Source: Physcia stellaris
Lineage: Eukaryota > Ascomycota > Lecanoromycetes > Caliciales > Physciaceae
Reading direction: 5' to 3'
DNA: 64,000 nucleotides
Assembly (NCBI GenBank): GCA_018902385.1
Contig: JABSSW010000003.1
Span: 558,001-622,000, forward strand
Positions within the stretch are counted from its first letter, which is position 1; every line of letters starts with the position of its first letter. The notes under the pieces were generated by a model, which was not told where the DNA came from, made no database searches, and saw only the letters and a program-made list of their open reading frames with translations. Shown piece after piece: positions 16,543 to 56,521 of the stretch. A program made the position numbers and the translations under genes.

Positions 16543-19389
16543 TCACAACGCCTTGACTGACTGGAAGAAGGGATTATTGAGCAATTTCTCATTACCCATG
16601 ATGAGCGCCTTCATTTTAGCCACCTGATCCTCCTTGCTCATGTTTTGGTCGTTCGTCTCTTGTTTCCACTGGGCAAGTATCTCCTTTAACAGCACGTTTC
16701 CCTCCTCAACGTCCTGCTTCGAATGAGAGACATAATTCTCGTCGTGCTTGGTAGAGAAATCTTCTAGTTCATCTGCTTTGCGCTTGGCCATGTTAATGAC
16801 CTTTTGAGGGAACCTGACAAGCTCGGCGACATGAATGCCAAAGCTCTGGTCACAAACGCCATCTTCCACTTTGTACAGGAGCGTGACTTCTCGGCGCTCC
16901 TTGTTGGTGTCTCCGATGTGTGCAACGACGTGCAGGTTCTGGACTTGTGGATAGTCATTGACAAGCGCTGTCAGCTCGTGGAAGTGGGTGGCAAACATAG
17001 CGAAACATTTAATCTCCTTGATGATGTGCTCTGAGATAGCCCAGGCGAGTCCAAACCCATCATACGTACTGGTGCCACGACCTAGTTCATCGATGATGAT
17101 GAGAGACTCGGATGTTGCTGATTTGAGGATATTCGCCGTTTCCAACATCTCTGCCATGAACGTAGATACTCCCTTAAGCTGGGAATCACTAGCACCCACA
17201 CGTGCTAGGATGCTATCAAACAGGGTGATTTCGGCTTCTGAACAAGGCACAAAGCAGCCGATTTGGGCCATCAAAGCAATGACGCCTATTTGCCGGATGT
17301 ATGTAGACTTTCCACCCATATTTGGGCCTGTGATAATCAGAAACTCCGAGCTTCCTCGGATGAGAGAGACATCGTTGGTGATGAACTGAACATCATCTTG
17401 CATCTCCATGCATGGATGTCTTGCTTCTTTTAGTATGGTGTTACCTTCGCCACGAGGGTGCATTTTTGGTCGAACGTATGATGTTGGCGCATGTACCGAG
17501 ACATGAGCAAAGCTGACAATCACGTCGAGATGGGAAAGCACACCAGCAAGCTTTTCGAGGACTGGACAGTAGGATGCCGCGACGTTGACGACTTCGCTCA
17601 CAAGGCCGGTCTGCGTACGCTTGTAGTTTTCCGAAAGCTGATCATGTTCACGACGCATGGTCTGCATGGAGGACGTGGTAAAATAGACACCGTTCTTCTG
17701 GGTCGAACATTCTTGATATTGCTTCTTATTTCGTATGCAGCCCGCTTCAGTTCTTGTAAGGCGAAAGCACCAACCGTGAACTCTATGATTTTCAAGGAAT
17801 AGCTTTTTCTCGGTGTCCTGGTCAAGATCTTTACCTACTTTTGTGTGCTCTACGTCCATTTCATATTTCAATTTCTCCAATTTCTTCCGGATAATCCTTA
17901 AGCTCTCATCGAACTCTGGCTTGATGCTAAATTCGTGATGATCAAGGGCGTCTAGATCCACGGTTGTCTCTACCATTTCTTGCAATTTAGCCAGGCTATT
18001 TGAATAGTCAATGAGTTTCGAAGTGTATTCTGCTTCAAGCGGATCCTTGTATTTTTCGTCCATGATTCCCTCCAGTGTGCCGATGAAGCCTGGAATACGA
18101 ATGACTACCTGATATGCTCGAACAACATCTTCTAGATTAGCCATCTTTCGCTGAAATCTCTTCGACAGACGGTAGAGATCTGGTATCGAGCGCAGGTGCT
18201 CTTCTTGCATGGTCTGCCGCAGCTCAGTGTCCTCAACAAAAGCCTCTACAAGCTGTTGGCGCCTCTCGATTTCCTCGAGACTCATTAAGGGCTGTTTTAG
18301 CCACTGAGAAAGCAGACGACTGCCAACAGGTGTCTTGCAATGGTTCAATAGACCATAAAGACTCATGGTTTTCGATCCATCGCGCGGGCCTGGCATGAGA
18401 TTGAGCGCCTTTAGCGCCGAGGCGTCCAGTTTCATATATTGTGCTAGATCATGTTGGTATAGCTGATACTGGCCGAAATTAGATGGGTCTGAAAGTGCGC
18501 CGAGATACTTGATGAGGGCGGCCGCCGAGCCCATCGCCAATTTCAAATCAGTCTGCGGCAGTGTGCCTGCTGCACGTTCCTCTCTGAGAAGCCTCGTCAA
18601 GTCTTGCTCAATGTCTTTTGTACCGAAGTCGCCAACGGTCCGCTCTGACAAAGCAATGCCACAGTTATCGGCTATAGTTCTGAGCTTGGCTAATTCCGGA
18701 TCTTTTTTCTGCGCGTCTGCTGGCAACAGTAGCTCCTTCACTCTAACTGAATCAACAAGGATTCGAAGTTTGAATACAAGTCGTTGTCCAGAAACTCGCT
18801 AACGCCGAGCTCACGGACACTAGCATCTGCAAAGCAAACGCCAACATTACGAGCTTCCGATGCTTTCGCCGAAACCTTGACTGCTAGTATGATAGGAGCC
18901 GAGTCGACTTGGCCTCCCAGCTCATCCTCGACATCCTGAAGGTTTCCAGGAGACGCTTGTTTCCTCAGCTTCCACTGCATGCGGCCTGTAGTTTCCCAGA
19001 TCTCGATCCGCTTGCCTAACTTGAAGAGAGCCTCTCGTAGAAAATTGCGGTACACTGTCATCGTCATGGTCACAGAAGGCAGTCCGGTGTCGAGTTTGCC
19101 GAGCTGTCTGAGGACAGACATCGTCTTGTACATCTGCGTTCGTTGAATAAGAGGCGGGGCACAAAGATAAAGGTCCATACATACTGTACGAGCGATGAAA
19201 GCAGCATCATCCCCATGTGCTGTGTACCAGTCTCCTCGATCGAATATCCGAATAGTTTCGTCATCCTTGTGAGGTAATCCACGGAAGAATTTAATAAAGC
19301 CAACCTCGTCATCAACCTGATTACTGTCAGTCTAGCAGAGTACGGCTGTAGATGTCTCCTTGTACCTTAAGCTCCGGTCGTGAACCCAT
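16543..19389 (-). CDS. MSH2: DNA mismatch repair protein Msh2, one apparent frameshift
   Basis: Msh2 pairs with Msh3 or Msh6 to detect mispaired bases and small loops in the nucleus. Exons 19389-19366, 19316-19185 and 19133-16543 would give about 915 residues. The N-terminal mismatch-binding domain starts MGSRPELKVDDEVGFIKFF and includes IRIFDRGDWYTAHG. The core and lever domains follow. The MutS ATPase shows Walker A TGPNMGGKSTYIRQ, the switch FDSILARVGASDSQLKGVSTF, Walker B IIIDELGRGTSTYDG and the H-loop FATHFHELT. Near 18742-18747 the frame breaks: SNFESLLIQLE ends in a stop, while VKELLLPADAQKKDPELAKLR continues one frame over. The family runs straight through here (IQL-G-VKE) and no intron of realistic size fits, so one base appears missing. 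It is either a sequence error or a loss-of-function allele. Confidence 0.95.
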
Positions 19390-50578: not shown

Positions 50579-51999
50579 CTCTGGAAGATGGTGTTTAATT
50601 CTGCTTCGAATATTGTAAGTAGCCGTTCTGGTCAAGTTGGTAAATCTCCTTTTGTATGAGTCTGCACACAGTACTAGAACAGGCCAGGTATTCTTGATTG
50701 ATCAAGTATAATAGGCTTGTTTGCTCCGTTTTCTTAGTGTATCGTTGAGACAAAGACTATTGTCAACACTGGTCTCGAAATTCTGACGCTGATTCCTGCG
50801 TCACTGTAATTGGACTCTGATGTCTTTTGTTGAGGGCGATGTGAGACTACTTGTGTAATGCAAGTCGGTGTGAGACGGAGGAAAGAAAGAAGCACACTTG
50901 GTGGACCGGGTCAGTTTGAAAGATCTGACTCATTCGATTTTTTGTTTGGTTATCTGGCGTTTGGGAGTGAGAAGTTATGATTCACCACGAGATAAGGTTC
51001 CTGAAAAGCCTCAAAGCACCCAACGGTTGAAAAAACGGAAGTTTGTGCGCCCCACCTTTTCGCTTGAACTACGAGTGTTGAAGTTATTTATGGGAGAGGC
51101 AGGTAGATACACGGGTGGGAAGAAAAGTTGTGTTGTACACCAGAATGGTCATTTTCCACCCTTTCGACTCCCTGCGCTATGAGCAAAAACAGTGCTATCG
51201 CCTGCGTCGTAGTGGCAGGAGACTTATGAAACTCATGGTAATCATTAGTCCTAGACATTGTTATCAGCCGATGGTTCTGGGGTATCAACACCTTGGAATT
51301 ATCCCATGGTCTGGTGTGGTGCTATCTTGCCTCCCATGCATCGCCATCGATACACCCAATATGATAACACGCTTACCCGTGTTTGGCACAAAGCATATGC
51401 AGACGACCTGAAGACGATATGAAATTAGTATGAAGACAACAAAGACGTTGTGGGTTCGAATCCAACGAGCAACCCGCAAGGCGCTGTCAAGACCTGAACT
51501 AAGACGCCTTAATCGTAAACCGGAGAGCAGCAGTCATGTCGCATATGACTACAGCTCGAGGATGTTGGTCTATCTTCCATCCCAAGAAGCCCCGCCGGCT
51601 CTTGGTTTGGGAGGAGACTTGTTTTATGGTTCCTACTCATACTTTGTCTTGTGGCTTCGAAAAAAGTTTGTGGCATGTTTGATGTTAGTATCCTCAGACA
51701 TATGTAGCTTTCTCGTATCACCGTCATCGTCATACGAATGCTGGTCTTTCGTTATGCTCGTAGTAGATAATTATCCACTCATTGCGGAGAAGTACTTGAT
51801 GGGCTACACGAGTAGTTGCTGACTTTTCTTAGCATGTTGATTTCTTTAACCCATCTCAAAGCTAGACACCCTAGCAAGCTGTATAACATATGGATACCAT
51901 TTTCAAAGACTAGCAGAATAGAAATGGGATGCTCCTCCAAGGCTCCTCCAAGCGGACTAGATCCAGACTTGGGTTAGCTTTACTTTCCCCTGCAGAGTA
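50579..51999. other. Intergenic, 1.4 kb, left flank of the transposon
   Basis: Upstream of the acidic protein gene. A plus-strand frame at 51430-51822 (130 codons) shows no domain. A tRNA T-arm-like string near 51446-51466 is discussed under rejected items. The last bases before the transposon are CTGCAGAG then the duplicated TA at 51998-51999. Confidence 0.55.
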
Positions 52000-52089
52000 T
52001 CGTGGATTGCAAATGTTTGTTCCAACTGCCGAAAATGCCAAGGTTTGGGTGCGGACCCCACCAAAGTATCGGAAAATCGAGCGATTTTG
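52000..52089 (+). repeat. Left terminal inverted repeat of the transposon
   Basis: Begins TCGTGGATTGCAAATG and runs to the CGAGCGATTTTG block. It matches the reverse complement of 56305-56394 with about three mismatches in 90 bp. Weaker similarity continues inward to a shared CTCGCTTAG block (about 52138). The repeat contains ordinary CC, GG, CT and AG steps, unlike the interior. Confidence 0.95.
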
Positions 52090-52149
52090 GTAAATCGTCA
52101 ATATCATCAATTGAGCACCTCAATAAAGCTCTGAATATCTCGCTTAGAA

Positions 52150-55100
52150 TAATTCATGATGTTGTGATTCGTGTGAATGATCAATTCATGCGTTTCGTCG
52201 AAATCATCGCTTTCATGATGCATAATGCATCAAAACAGCGATGTAATCGACGTTCACGAAAAATTTTCTTTTTTTCGTAAAAATTTTTTGCAATGATTTT
52301 CAATTGATGTAATATTTTTATTTCTCGTTTTTATTGTTGTTTTGAATGTTTCGTTTGTTTCGTTCGTTTTATATCATCGTCGATATGATTTTTTTCGTGA
52401 AAAAAAATTCACAGCGACAGCAATTGAAATCGTTGTTGTTTTCAAAATCAAAAAAATCAAAAAAATCAAAAAAATCAAATCGAAAACGAAATTCAAATTC
52501 AAATTCAAATTTCAAATCATATTCAATGTGAAATTCGTTTCGTCGAAATCGAAAAAAAAATTCGTTTTCGAAAAAATTCAATTCGAATTCAACAAAAAAC
52601 ATTGAACGCGAAAAATGACGTTATCGAAAACGTCGAAAATAATGAAACGAAAAAAACAAAAAAAATTGTCGATTTGAACGAAAAAATGAAAAAAACGAAA
52701 AAAAAAAAAAAAAAAAAAACGAAATTTCAAAAATCGAAATTTCGAAATTTCGAACAAAAATGATCAAATTTAATCGTCAACTTGATAAAAAAATCGATAA
52801 AAACAAACAAAAAATCATATTCATCGATTTTGAAAAAAAAAAAATTTTTATTCAATTTGTTTTTCGTCAAATCAAAAAACGAATTAAATCAAAAATTTTG
52901 AATAATGAAAACGAACTTCGCAAAAAAATGAAAAAAAAAAAAAAATCAACAAAAAACTGAAAAAACGATTGATCGAAATAAAATATATCGTTCATTGAAA
53001 AATGTTTTTCGAAAATGTTGTTGTTGATCAAAATATTGTCATTTTTCGCATTATTGATATAAATCGTTTCGATTTTTTGAAAATTTCGAACGTTATGCAA
53101 CATGTCGCGAAAAATCACGTCGTCGTCAATAATTTGACGATATTTCATTTATTTATCATTGAAACGCTTATTTGATTTGCACAAACGAAAAACGAAAAAA
53201 ATTTTACTATTTTCGCTAAATGAATCGATTTCGATTCGAAAATGATGTTTCAATTGCGAATGAAAATGTTACAAAAATTTTCGAAAAAACAATTCATCGT
53301 GCGTATTGAAACTCGATATTACAAAAATGTCAACGACATCATTTTCGAAATTCAACGATTTTTTTTCGTCGTTTCAGTATCGATCATGATCGAATTGAAA
53401 ACTCAACAAATAAAACAGAAAATGAACATTCAAAAAAAAAAACGAACAAAACAAATCGAAAACAAAAAATTACAATTTATCGTCGATTATAATTGCACGA
53501 AATTTAAATGTTTCAACAACAAATTTCAAAATGAAAATGTTGAAAATCAATGCGTTGTTCATAACAATCATCATTATATTTTTATTAAAAACGTCATTAA
53601 CAAATGACATGATTTAATTACACAAATCAAAGTCATCGTCGTTAAATGTTTTGAGCACATTCGAAAAACGCTCAAATCAACGTTTTTAATTAAGAAATTT
53701 TTCGATGAAAACAAAAACGATACGTCAACGAACGTTTATTTGAATGTATTGAACGTCAAAACGTTGAATTTTTTAACTCGTTCAAAAAAACGAGTTTCGA
53801 GACGTCATAATCATAAACGTCGAAAAAATAACAAAAAAATCGAAAAAAATCACAAAATTTCAAATTTTTTTTTTTTTCGTCGTTTTTTTCTTTTGAATTC
53901 AGTTCGAAATTCTATTTTAACGAAAAAAAATCTCATTCTCGTTCGAAATTCAAACGAAAATCGAAACGTTCGCGTTCGATCAGCAAATTCAAACGCACAA
54001 CGTCGATCAAACGATCAAAAATGCGATTTTTGTTAACAAATCGCGTGCGTATTCTGCTTTTTCTGATGTTTTTTTTTTATGAATAATTTCGTCAAATTCA
54101 AAAAAAGCGTCGTGAATATAATTGATGATTTCATTCGTTGAAAAATTGACGTCAATCGAAAATTACGTTTCGATAGTGAATTGAAAATTTATTTGCATGT
54201 TGAACGAATATTCATCGACAAAAAATTCGATTTTCGCATTGTACAAAAAAAAAAAACATCATGCAAATCGAAAAATGATGAAAAAAGTACGACATCGAAT
54301 CGAATATCGATTTAACGCTCGCTCGTGATGCGAAAAAATTTGAAATCTATTTTGCAAAAACGTATGAGCATGATATGATTTCATTCAACGAAATTTCAAA
54401 AAAAGTGAAATATCAAGAAAAAATAAAATCAAAAAAAATGAATTCAAAAAAATGAATCAATCATGACTCGTGAAATACGTGATGAATGCATTTATTTCAT
54501 TAATCGCGTTAATTTCATACAAGTAATAAAAACGTGTATTTTATTCGATCAAATTAAATTTCAATTTCTTTTGATAAAATATTACGTATTTTATGTCTCA
54601 TTACGTGTATTATATCGTCGATCATTCGCTGAGTCTCATTATCACAATAAATTACATCTTCGCAATTGCGAAAATTTTTAATTTTTCGAGTTTGATCGCT
54701 AATTCGATTTCAAACATGTTTATTGATATATTTTCGTCATCGTCAAATTCACGATACGCATCATTCGTTGAAATTGAAACGATTCGATTGATTGAACGTC
54801 AAACGATTACATCGTCACGACGATTTTTTTTTTCAACATCACGACGATTTTTTTCACGAGTCGAAAGACTCGAATCGTTACTGTTTTTCTTTTTGATGAA
54901 GTCTTTTTCTATGTCGCTCGAATTGAATATTCAAAATTACGATATGAAATTTTTGAAAAAACAAAACGTGTTCGAAATTCGCTTGATCAAGCAGCAAAAT
55001 AATACGAAAAACGAAAACATTGACGAGAATCGACAAATTTCGAAAATCACGACTACTGATGACGAAAAATAAATAAAATTACATAAAAATTTTCAACAAA

Positions 55101-55150
55101 TTTGAATCAATTTAATCGTTTTAATTCGATTTATTTACATACATTCAATC
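52150..55150. other. Unexplained AT-rich interior of the transposon
   Basis: No family is recognised. Low-complexity stretches include repeated TCAAAAAAA (52450-52480) and TTCAAA units and an A-run near 52700. Plus-strand frames at 53242-53607 and 53740-54036 read basic, Asn/Lys-rich protein, and one part has clustered Cys and His (CTKFKCFNNK..ENQCVVHNNHHY). Another frame runs 54463-55072. These may be decayed remains of a second gene or cargo, or simply artefacts of base composition. Confidence 0.4.
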
Positions 55151-55151
55151 G

Positions 55152-56178
55152 TTAAAAATAATCGTATTTCGTTGTTCGAAACAATTTGTCAAAATCATTT
55201 CGTTGATTTTGCGCAAACATCGCATTTGCGAAAAATCGTTCGAAATTTTCAAAATGTAATTCATACGACTCAACAATGTAATCATTACGTTTGATTCATC
55301 GCTTGAATACAGCGAAAAATGTTTTTATTGAATTAAAATTCGATAAATAAAAAAATAAAAACGTCAATTTCACATCAATCGTTGCGCACATTTTTTTAAA
55401 TCGATCAGATTTGTGAGCAAAAACATTATCGCAAATAATAATCGAGTTAAATTTTTCGAGTGTTGCAAATGTGCATAAAGAAAAAATTTGTTCATACACA
55501 AACGCATCGAACAACTTTTGCGTTATCGAGTCATGATGTATCGTTCAAGCGATGTATTTTTTGATTGTGTATGCAAAAAATATTGATCATTTTTTTGATT
55601 TTTTAAACAAAACGTTGACAATTTTTTTTCGATTCACATGCGTTCATGCATATTTTCGATTTTTTGTACGTTCGCAAATCGCGATCTCGTCAAAAAACAT
55701 TAATTGATGAAATTTTCAATCGAATATTTTCAATTTTCAAACGTTTCGCTGACATTGATTTCGTTGAAAAACACGATAAACGATTTTGCAAATGATCAAT
55801 TAAAACATCAAAACGATCGAAAACGTTGATTTTTTTATGAAATCATTCAAATTTTTTCAAAATTCGACAAATAATCGTTTCGCTGACAACAACATCATAC
55901 ATATCGAAAATAAATCAGCACATTTCGTTCAAATATTTGATGAAATGCAAATCGATATAATCGAATAAATGCAATTTCATCGTTTCGATCAATTTTCGTA
56001 ATCGTTTCATGATTGCATATGAAACGATCACAACATCATATTTGATCAGATTTCGTTTCATTTTATTTATTTGTTTCACAGTAACGTTTGTGATCACTGA
56101 AATTCGCGAAAAAAATTCGTCATATCGAATCATGATTTCAATTTCATCGCGAATTTTTTGAGTGAACGACGACGACAT
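55152..56178 (-). pseudogene. Decayed Tc1/mariner-like transposase
   Basis: Reading from 56178, MSSSFTQKIRDEIEIM begins an N-terminal helix-turn-helix region that goes on to a second one (VVVSETIICRILKKFE). The DDE domain is recognisable near 55430-55296: IIICDNVFAHKSDRFKKMC is the second catalytic Asp region, followed by the LTFLFFYLSNFNSIK block that corresponds to the family LPPYSPxxNPIE. Spacing between the Asp and the final catalytic position is 34 residues (DD34E type), but that position is now Lys (codon at 55325-55323), a change expected from G to A. The C-terminal tail runs to a stop at 55152. Several in-frame stops, mostly at positions expected to be Trp, interrupt it. Confidence 0.85.
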
Positions 56179-56304
56179 AGTGAGCGATGATAAAATCTCA
56201 AAACGATAAAAAAAAAAATAAACATCAAAATCAATAACTAAGCGAGTTATACTGATGCTCAATAGAAATTACAATGCTTTATTACTGAGTTCTACGAAAT
56301 TTAT

Positions 56305-56394
56305 CAAAATCGCTCGATTTTCCGATACTTTGGTGGGGTCCGCACCCAAATCTTGGCACTTTCGGCGGTTGGAACAAACATTTGCAATCCACGA
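56305..56394 (-). repeat. Right terminal inverted repeat of the transposon
   Basis: Mirror of 52000-52089, ending TGCAATCCACGA before the TA at 56395. It is unmutated in composition, as is the sequence down to about 56255. Confidence 0.95.
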
Positions 56395-56521
56395 TAGCGC
56401 ATCGCTTGGCGGGGAACACCCCACGCTCCGCGTCTTAAGGCCAGCGCGTCTGTTACTTCTACCTGACTCGCTCCAACTGCGGGTTGCACAACTGCCTACT
56501 CACCAAAGCGAACCCATCAGC

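Follow-up and report, generated by a model that had tools for sequence, protein, structure and literature searches.

Probable hypermutation, resembling repeat-induced point mutation, of cytosines followed by a pyrimidine in a dead Tc1/mariner-superfamily transposon of Physcia stellaris

Fungal processes that mutate the cytosines of repeated DNA can be told apart by the base that follows the target. For example, repeat-induced point mutation (RIP) in Neurospora crassa affects dinucleotides in the order CpA, CpT, CpG and CpC, and in Trichoderma reesei CpA and CpG rank above CpT and CpC (PMC5496416). Here we describe an element in a 64,000-nt stretch of the Physcia stellaris genome (assembly GCA_018902385.1, contig JABSSW010000003.1, positions 558,001 to 622,000 of the forward strand; hereafter ‘the window’, in whose numbering all coordinates are given). 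The element is a dead DNA transposon of the Tc1/mariner superfamily, 4.4 kb long, and its interior is almost devoid of cytosines that precede C or T (CpY, where Y is a pyrimidine), with CpA and CpG still abundant.

CpT appears in several accounts of RIP and of processes that resemble it. A raised level of CpT change is reported for Tad1 repeats and ribosomal DNA (rDNA) of N. crassa (PMC2621366, PMC5555474), CpT is found beside CpA as a target in Botrytis, Sclerotinia and Magnaporthe and predominates in two genomes (PMC4352252), some repeat families of Colletotrichum truncatum were scored as CpT with a TpA/ApT of about 1.6 (PMC6180176), CpA and CpT are both targets in Anisogramma (PMC10998396), and CpT to TpT was the dominant change in the alignments of a survey of Ascomycota (PMC7882544). 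Other accounts depart further from the classical order. Short rDNA repeats of Stagonospora nodorum show a high level of CpT to TpT change without CpA RIP, which the authors hesitate to ascribe to RIP (PMC2621366); Monilinia combines classical CpA change with CpC to TpT double changes (PMC8959702); and in the Basidiomycota, as exemplified by Microbotryum and Rhizoctonia, hypermutation is directed at CpG or TpCpG (PMC4014442, PMC12730594). In addition, DIM-2 is described in a 2026 review as producing 5-methylcytosine in all CpN contexts with a preference for CpT (PMC13297926). Each of these statements refers to the cited passages of the paper concerned, and not to the whole of it.

To describe the extent of the pattern, the share of C (on both strands) that has a 3' pyrimidine was calculated in 300-bp windows. 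This share averages 0.077 in the 37 such windows inside the element (highest 0.167) and 0.503 in the 592 outside it (standard deviation 0.043), and no second CpY-depleted patch is present in the 64-kb window, where the lowest share outside the element is 0.388. A two-state change-point fit, with a log-likelihood gain of 559 nats, places the depleted block at 52155-56232; its left limit is narrowly defined (52147-52161), its right one less so (56174-56238). A previous reading of this DNA, made by a model from the sequence alone, had placed the pattern at 52150-56160 with an end on both sides, and the fitted block and its sharp contrast with the outside bear this out; the counts that it gave for 54061-54240 (CA 8, CG 12, CT 1, CC 0, with G 25 times after a pyrimidine and twice after a purine) are exact. 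At the left limit the two targets behave alike, as the last CC or GG lies at 52118 and CT or AG is dense up to 52146. At the right, CT or AG resumes at about 56161 and CC or GG at 56322, and here the two targets may end apart.

Dinucleotides were counted in a 4,020-bp segment of the block (52155-56174), and the counts were compared with those expected from its own base composition and with 26 partly overlapping host segments of equal length. The segment contains 0 CC+GG, against 152 expected by its own composition and a host mean of 458, and 85 CT+AG, against 398 and 538, respectively. As the sequence-only reading had also claimed, CpA and CpG remain plentiful, both being above expectation from the segment’s own composition (478 versus 402 for CA+TG, 270 versus 75 for CG). 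TA is found 180 times versus 526 by composition, and the GC content is 0.274 in the element versus a host mean of 0.494.

Ratios of the RIPCAL style, with formulae as given in the cited passages of PMC2621366, were compared with 103 overlapping host segments. The CpC ratio is 0 (host 0.59-0.94) and the CpT ratio 0.057 (host 0.89-1.22). Because the CpA ratio of 2.66 lies within the host range (2.34-4.09) and the CpG ratio of 0.565 lies above it (0.28-0.47), these two dinucleotides have not been consumed. With thresholds taken from the cited passages of PMC6180176, both classic indices fall outside the RIP range, with a TpA/ApT of 0.36 (threshold 0.89) and a (CpA+TpG)/(ApC+GpT) of 1.37 (threshold 1.03). 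The TpA/ApT is even below the host minimum of 0.53, and the combination of CpA preference and raised TpA/ApT by which RIP is recognized is not seen in the element. The CpA preference itself differs from species to species.

The rule behind this composition was estimated with a four-parameter model, in which host segments stand for the ancestor and each of the four 3' neighbours has its own free probability that a C, on either strand, changes to T. Across 18 of the 103 overlapping host segments (every sixth), the fitted probabilities were 1.00 for CpC, 0.826-0.846 for CpT, 0-0.105 (mean 0.027) for CpA and 0.000 for CpG, and the residual divergence was 0.005-0.028. In a comparison of fixed models by Kullback-Leibler (KL) divergence on 26 element-free host segments, change at CpY gave a value of 0.011. 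Of the rival fixed models, CpT only came nearest at 0.138, followed by CpC only (0.167) and equal change at every C (0.188); CpA plus CpT gave 0.339, CpA-type RIP 0.380, no change 0.382, and CpG the poorest value, 0.633. On this basis change at CpG, uniform loss of C, CpC or CpT by itself, and CpA plus CpT were rejected, as all diverge more than CpY does.

Trinucleotides provide a mass balance, since CCR (where R is a purine) occurs about 235 times per host segment versus 0 in the element, and TCR about 298 versus 570 times. CpC is a direct target because CCA and CCG lose their CC solely through a change of the first C, provided that CpA and CpG are not targets themselves. With 0 survivors at about 458 sites, the rule of three puts the ratio of the CpC rate to the highest fitted CpA rate at about 45 or more. 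The contexts of the surviving CG dinucleotides also fit the CpY model (p 0.97). Both strands are involved to a similar degree, as the surviving CpT sites read on the plus strand consist of 46 CT and 39 AG, and these survivors do not form strand tracts (40 runs; null 43.1±4.5).

A composition of this kind could be inherited or acquired, and conserved columns of the transposase bear on the choice between the two. The comparison used bacterial relatives of the IS630 group, retrieved with the protein of a weak Sinorhizobium plasmid match as the query and restricted to the best 80 of at least 548 confirmed relatives; with one further locus added, usable translations were obtained from 78 of 81 loci, and 3 were left out. 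At least 80% conservation among 78 bacterial relatives was found for 62 columns, with which the element agrees in 17 and differs in 45. Changes of C to T or G to A alone could account for 21 of the differing columns, compared with 8.2±2.5 (maximum 18) in 2000 shuffles, and 17 of these 21 lie entirely in CpY context, compared with a null of 6.0 (maximum 14). The strength of this test is in the excess, which amounts to about 11 columns for CpY and some 2 for CpR, and not in the ratio, because the CpY share of 17/21 is not much above the null share of about 0.73. Without a null of their own, the other thresholds gave 18 of 23 reachable columns wholly in CpY (60 differing) at 60% conservation and 12 of 14 (28 differing) at 95%. 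The excess of CpY changes in conserved columns therefore favours mutation over ancestral composition, which upholds the earlier proposal of a mutational origin; the further proposal, that a cytosine-mutating process read the 3' pyrimidine, finds support in the fitted probabilities.

These results allow a comparison with the systems described above. The damage resembles RID-dependent RIP of Neurospora in that C has become T on both strands of a transposon, at a density that destroys its genes, and transitions from C:G to T:A on both strands are indicated here by composition and conserved columns rather than by aligned copies. However, the order of targets is nearly inverted, as CpC exceeds CpT, CpA is changed at about 10% or less, CpG is not changed, and there is no rise in TpA. 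Species with RIP at both CpA and CpT share with the element a major, at times predominant, CpT target, but they also carry a CpA signature, CpC is unnamed as a target in the passages cited, and a TpA/ApT of about 1.6 in C. truncatum contrasts with 0.36 here. The rDNA repeats of S. nodorum are the nearest precedent found for the sparing of CpA, though CpC is again unnamed in the cited passages, whereas here it is the most complete target, and in a transposon. The hypermutation of Basidiomycota is likewise a RIP-like change of C to T with a target other than CpA, but it favours CpG, which is untouched in this element (270 in 4,020 bp). DIM-2 is similar in its preference for CpT and differs in that the cited part of the review (PMC13297926) does not describe it as excluding CpA and CpG. 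In the open-licence PMC literature, as far as the passages seen extend, no published process was found that loses CpC and CpT yet spares CpA.

The best explanation for these observations, and one that we regard as probable, is a RIP-like hypermutation of the interior of a dead Tc1/mariner transposon that follows a 3'-pyrimidine rule. In such a model, a process acting at the DNA level would convert C to T on both strands before a pyrimidine, essentially always at CpC and about five times in six at CpT, and would leave CpA and CpG intact. Repetition of the element may have been the trigger. The enzyme could be a C5-methyltransferase akin to RID/Masc1 or DIM-2 whose target has shifted, because such enzymes act in CpN and read the base 3' of the C. 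The damage would be recent relative to background mutation, since not a single CC or GG has reappeared over 4 kb. We lean slightly toward the view that this is a host genome defence with a CpY target, carried out by a relative of RID or DIM-2 whose reading of the 3' base has switched from a purine (A) to a pyrimidine, or by an unrelated enzyme. The process is RIP-like in its action, and its membership in RIP is unproven.

Several observations weigh against this explanation or limit it, beginning with the untouched ends of the element. About 50-65 bp separate the left arm from the start of the damage and about 60-125 bp separate its end from the right arm, and the terminal inverted repeats (TIRs) with their adjoining sequence (51998-52146 and 56239-56396) escaped mutation even though they are part of the element. 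RIP normally covers a duplicated stretch, and mutation that is triggered by repeats ought to run up to the ends of the repeat or beyond them. The interior alone may have been duplicated, the ends may have been shielded, or exchange with other copies may have restored the arms.

The surviving sites also depart from the rule in its simplest form. The survivors show mild clustering along the element (variance/mean 1.54 per 200 bp), and among surviving CpT sites there are 29 with a 3' C (CTC) versus 12.2 expected and 27 with a 5' G (GCT) versus 12.7 expected, so CpY alone is incomplete as a rule. The excess of CTC and GCT could reflect a second-order preference, or some CTC could be derived from CCC in which the middle C changed first. 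Slight deviations are also seen in the contexts of CA on the 5' side (p 0.015; p 0.91 at +2) and of TT (p 0.01 and 0.007), and the fixed CpY model misses the observed AA, which is 0.038 above it, and TT, which is 0.030 below it. As the element is richer in CpG than the host, the fitted CpG probability is at the lowest value that the fit allows.

Other points concern the sample and the column test. A single, damaged copy of the element, the one present in the window, was examined, and host DNA or bacterial relatives stand in for its ancestor in all of the rates. Ties between mutational paths were resolved toward CpY, equally in the data and in the null; the 21 reachable columns include 4 that require a CpR step (null about 2.2); and C-to-T or G-to-A change does not explain 24 of the 45 differing columns, which are taken as ordinary divergence. 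In addition, the three TGA codons in the aligned stretch do not confirm a derivation from TGG, as they align with T, P and L of the distant bacterial relatives and not with tryptophan.

Of the other explanations considered, a succession of two processes, one directed at CpT (of the RID or DIM-2 kind) and a separate one directed at CpC, is possible although we think it unlikely. CpT is a reported target of RIP or RIP-like change (PMC4352252, PMC2621366, PMC7882544) and is preferred by DIM-2 in the cited part of the 2026 review (PMC13297926), and two activities would accommodate the unequal completeness of the losses (1.00 at CpC, 0.83 at CpT) and the context bias that is peculiar to the surviving CpT. 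Nevertheless, a single rule, the 3' pyrimidine, covers both targets, and their left limits are alike.

An ancestral composition, in which the element was never hypermutated and stems from a genome or virus that is AT-rich and avoids CC, GG, CT and AG, is improbable. An intact copy that would exclude it directly is lacking in the 64-kb window, but the change in composition is abrupt, the element’s own termini retain 17-18 CpY sites per arm, conserved transposase columns differ toward C-to-T change at CpY beyond the shuffle null, and a rise in TCR balances the disappearance of CCR. Moreover, we know of no natural genome with 4 kb of coding and non-coding DNA free of CC and GG, and this also counts against an ancestral origin.

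We give about as little weight to a single-stranded DNA deaminase (APOBEC/AID-like) or a deaminase toxin that acted during transposition or replication. Deaminases of the APOBEC/AID type read the 5' neighbour of the C. The full conversion of CpC does resemble the action of CC-preferring deaminases, and the 5' G bias of the surviving CpT permits a minor 5' effect, but it is the 3' neighbour that decides, with the 5' contexts of surviving CG being those predicted by the CpY model. An enzyme reading CC from the 5' side would also yield CTA and CTG from CCA and CCG, yet it is TCA and TCG that have increased, and both strands are equally affected, with no sign of a strand-biased change set by the 5' base. 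Finally, ordinary CpA-directed RIP of the RID type, with the CpY pattern as a by-product of AT-richness, can be dismissed as barely credible, since a transposon of low GC content is its usual setting but its model performs no better than one without mutation (and poorly even when CpT is added to CpA), the CpA ratio stays within the host range, TpA/ApT is under the host minimum, and the sole dinucleotide that is wholly lost is CpC, the weakest Neurospora target (PMC5496416, passages as cited above).

The mutated interior lies within an otherwise recognizable transposon (Table 1). A duplicated TA target site is typical of the Tc1/mariner superfamily, for which 4.4 kb is long. The assignment to this superfamily (IS630) is based on the TA duplication, the TIRs and the PF13358 match, all of which are present in the element; Pfam matches are, however, absent from much of its interior. 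The two TIR arms are 96% complementary, with 4 differences in 98 positions, all of which are transitions and three of which are at CpY.

Table 1. Features of the P. stellaris element, in coordinates of the 64,000-nt window
Feature	Position	Strand	Remarks
TA target-site duplication, left copy	51998..51999	.	TA/TCGTGG at left end
TA target-site duplication, right copy	56395..56396	.	CCACGA/TA at right end
Left TIR	51998..52095	+	98 nt including TA; not hypermutated; 18 intact CpY sites
Right TIR	56299..56396	-	Not hypermutated; 17 intact CpY sites
Interior hypermutated on both strands (C to T at CpC and CpT)	52155..56232	.	Change-point fit; composition
Broken transposase, C-terminal frame	55155..55799	-	PF13358 DDE_3 at about 55275-55706
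Putative N-terminal part of same broken transposase, other frame	55606..56268	-	221 codons, 3 TGA, no TAA/TAG
Possible second mutated reading frame	52906..54033	+	376 codons, no TAA/TAG, 5 TGA

When its stops are read as X, the C-terminal transposase frame matches PF13358 DDE_3 with an E-value of 4e-10 (40.2 bits; cut-off 28.6), and a profile built from the 78 bacterial IS630 relatives also matches the broken transposase (32.1 bits for the domain). This frame comprises 215 codons, with six in-frame TGA and no TAA or TAG. The overlapping minus-strand frame is likely to be the N-terminal part of the transposase, and no Pfam match was found in it. The transposase thus seems to be split over two frames, between which an intron, a frameshift or another length change would lie.

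A second gene may lie in the plus-strand frame of Table 1, which has no Pfam match. Runs free of TAA and TAG are weak evidence on their own, as shown by their frequency in first-order Markov simulations (at least 376 codons in 3.3% of 300 simulations, at least 215 codons in 62%). Gene finding with a purine/pyrimidine code was uninformative about this second gene, as the wrong frames of host genes scored as high as the right ones. Within the mutated interior, the 9-mer AAAATCAAA is also repeated perfectly in tandem, in four copies, at 52444-52479, and Tandem Repeats Finder (TRF) reported further A-rich arrays there.

Searches for relatives gave little. No relative of the broken transposase was found in the PDB. 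A 176-aa stretch of it gave 6 pattern matches among viral contigs and, in the first of two scans, 68 among genome contigs, with none confirmed in either set; it had no confirmed relative among phages, and among plasmids one weak match, from Sinorhizobium, at 21% identity. None of the viral contigs contained an exact match to a 25-nt pattern from the TIR.

The surroundings of the element are gene-dense, with ATG9, GPI1, MSH2, VID27, eIF2B epsilon, an AP-1/2 beta adaptin and a formamidase in the window. The best match of eIF2B epsilon is entry 5b04, which we take to be from fission yeast. This match and the set of gene families indicate a fungal host, probably a filamentous one of the Pezizomycotina to judge by ATG9. 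No tRNA and no Rfam match was found in the window. The mismatch-repair gene MSH2 (16543-18741, minus strand) is 33 kb from the element, and no link between the two was seen.

The mutation pattern is real, extreme and unusual, and it is well supported for one element, though not yet for the genome. Standard RIP indices score the loss of CpA and the gain of TpA, and an element that is saturated with mutations fails both of them; index-based surveys would therefore miss a process that acts on CpY. Strict C-to-T change keeps the purine/pyrimidine pattern of a gene, which could aid the finding of dead elements, though the one attempt made here failed. If the explanation is true, a clean 3'-pyrimidine enzyme would be a natural partner to RID for locating the residues that read the base after the C, and its existence would raise the question of whether target choice evolves under transposon pressure.

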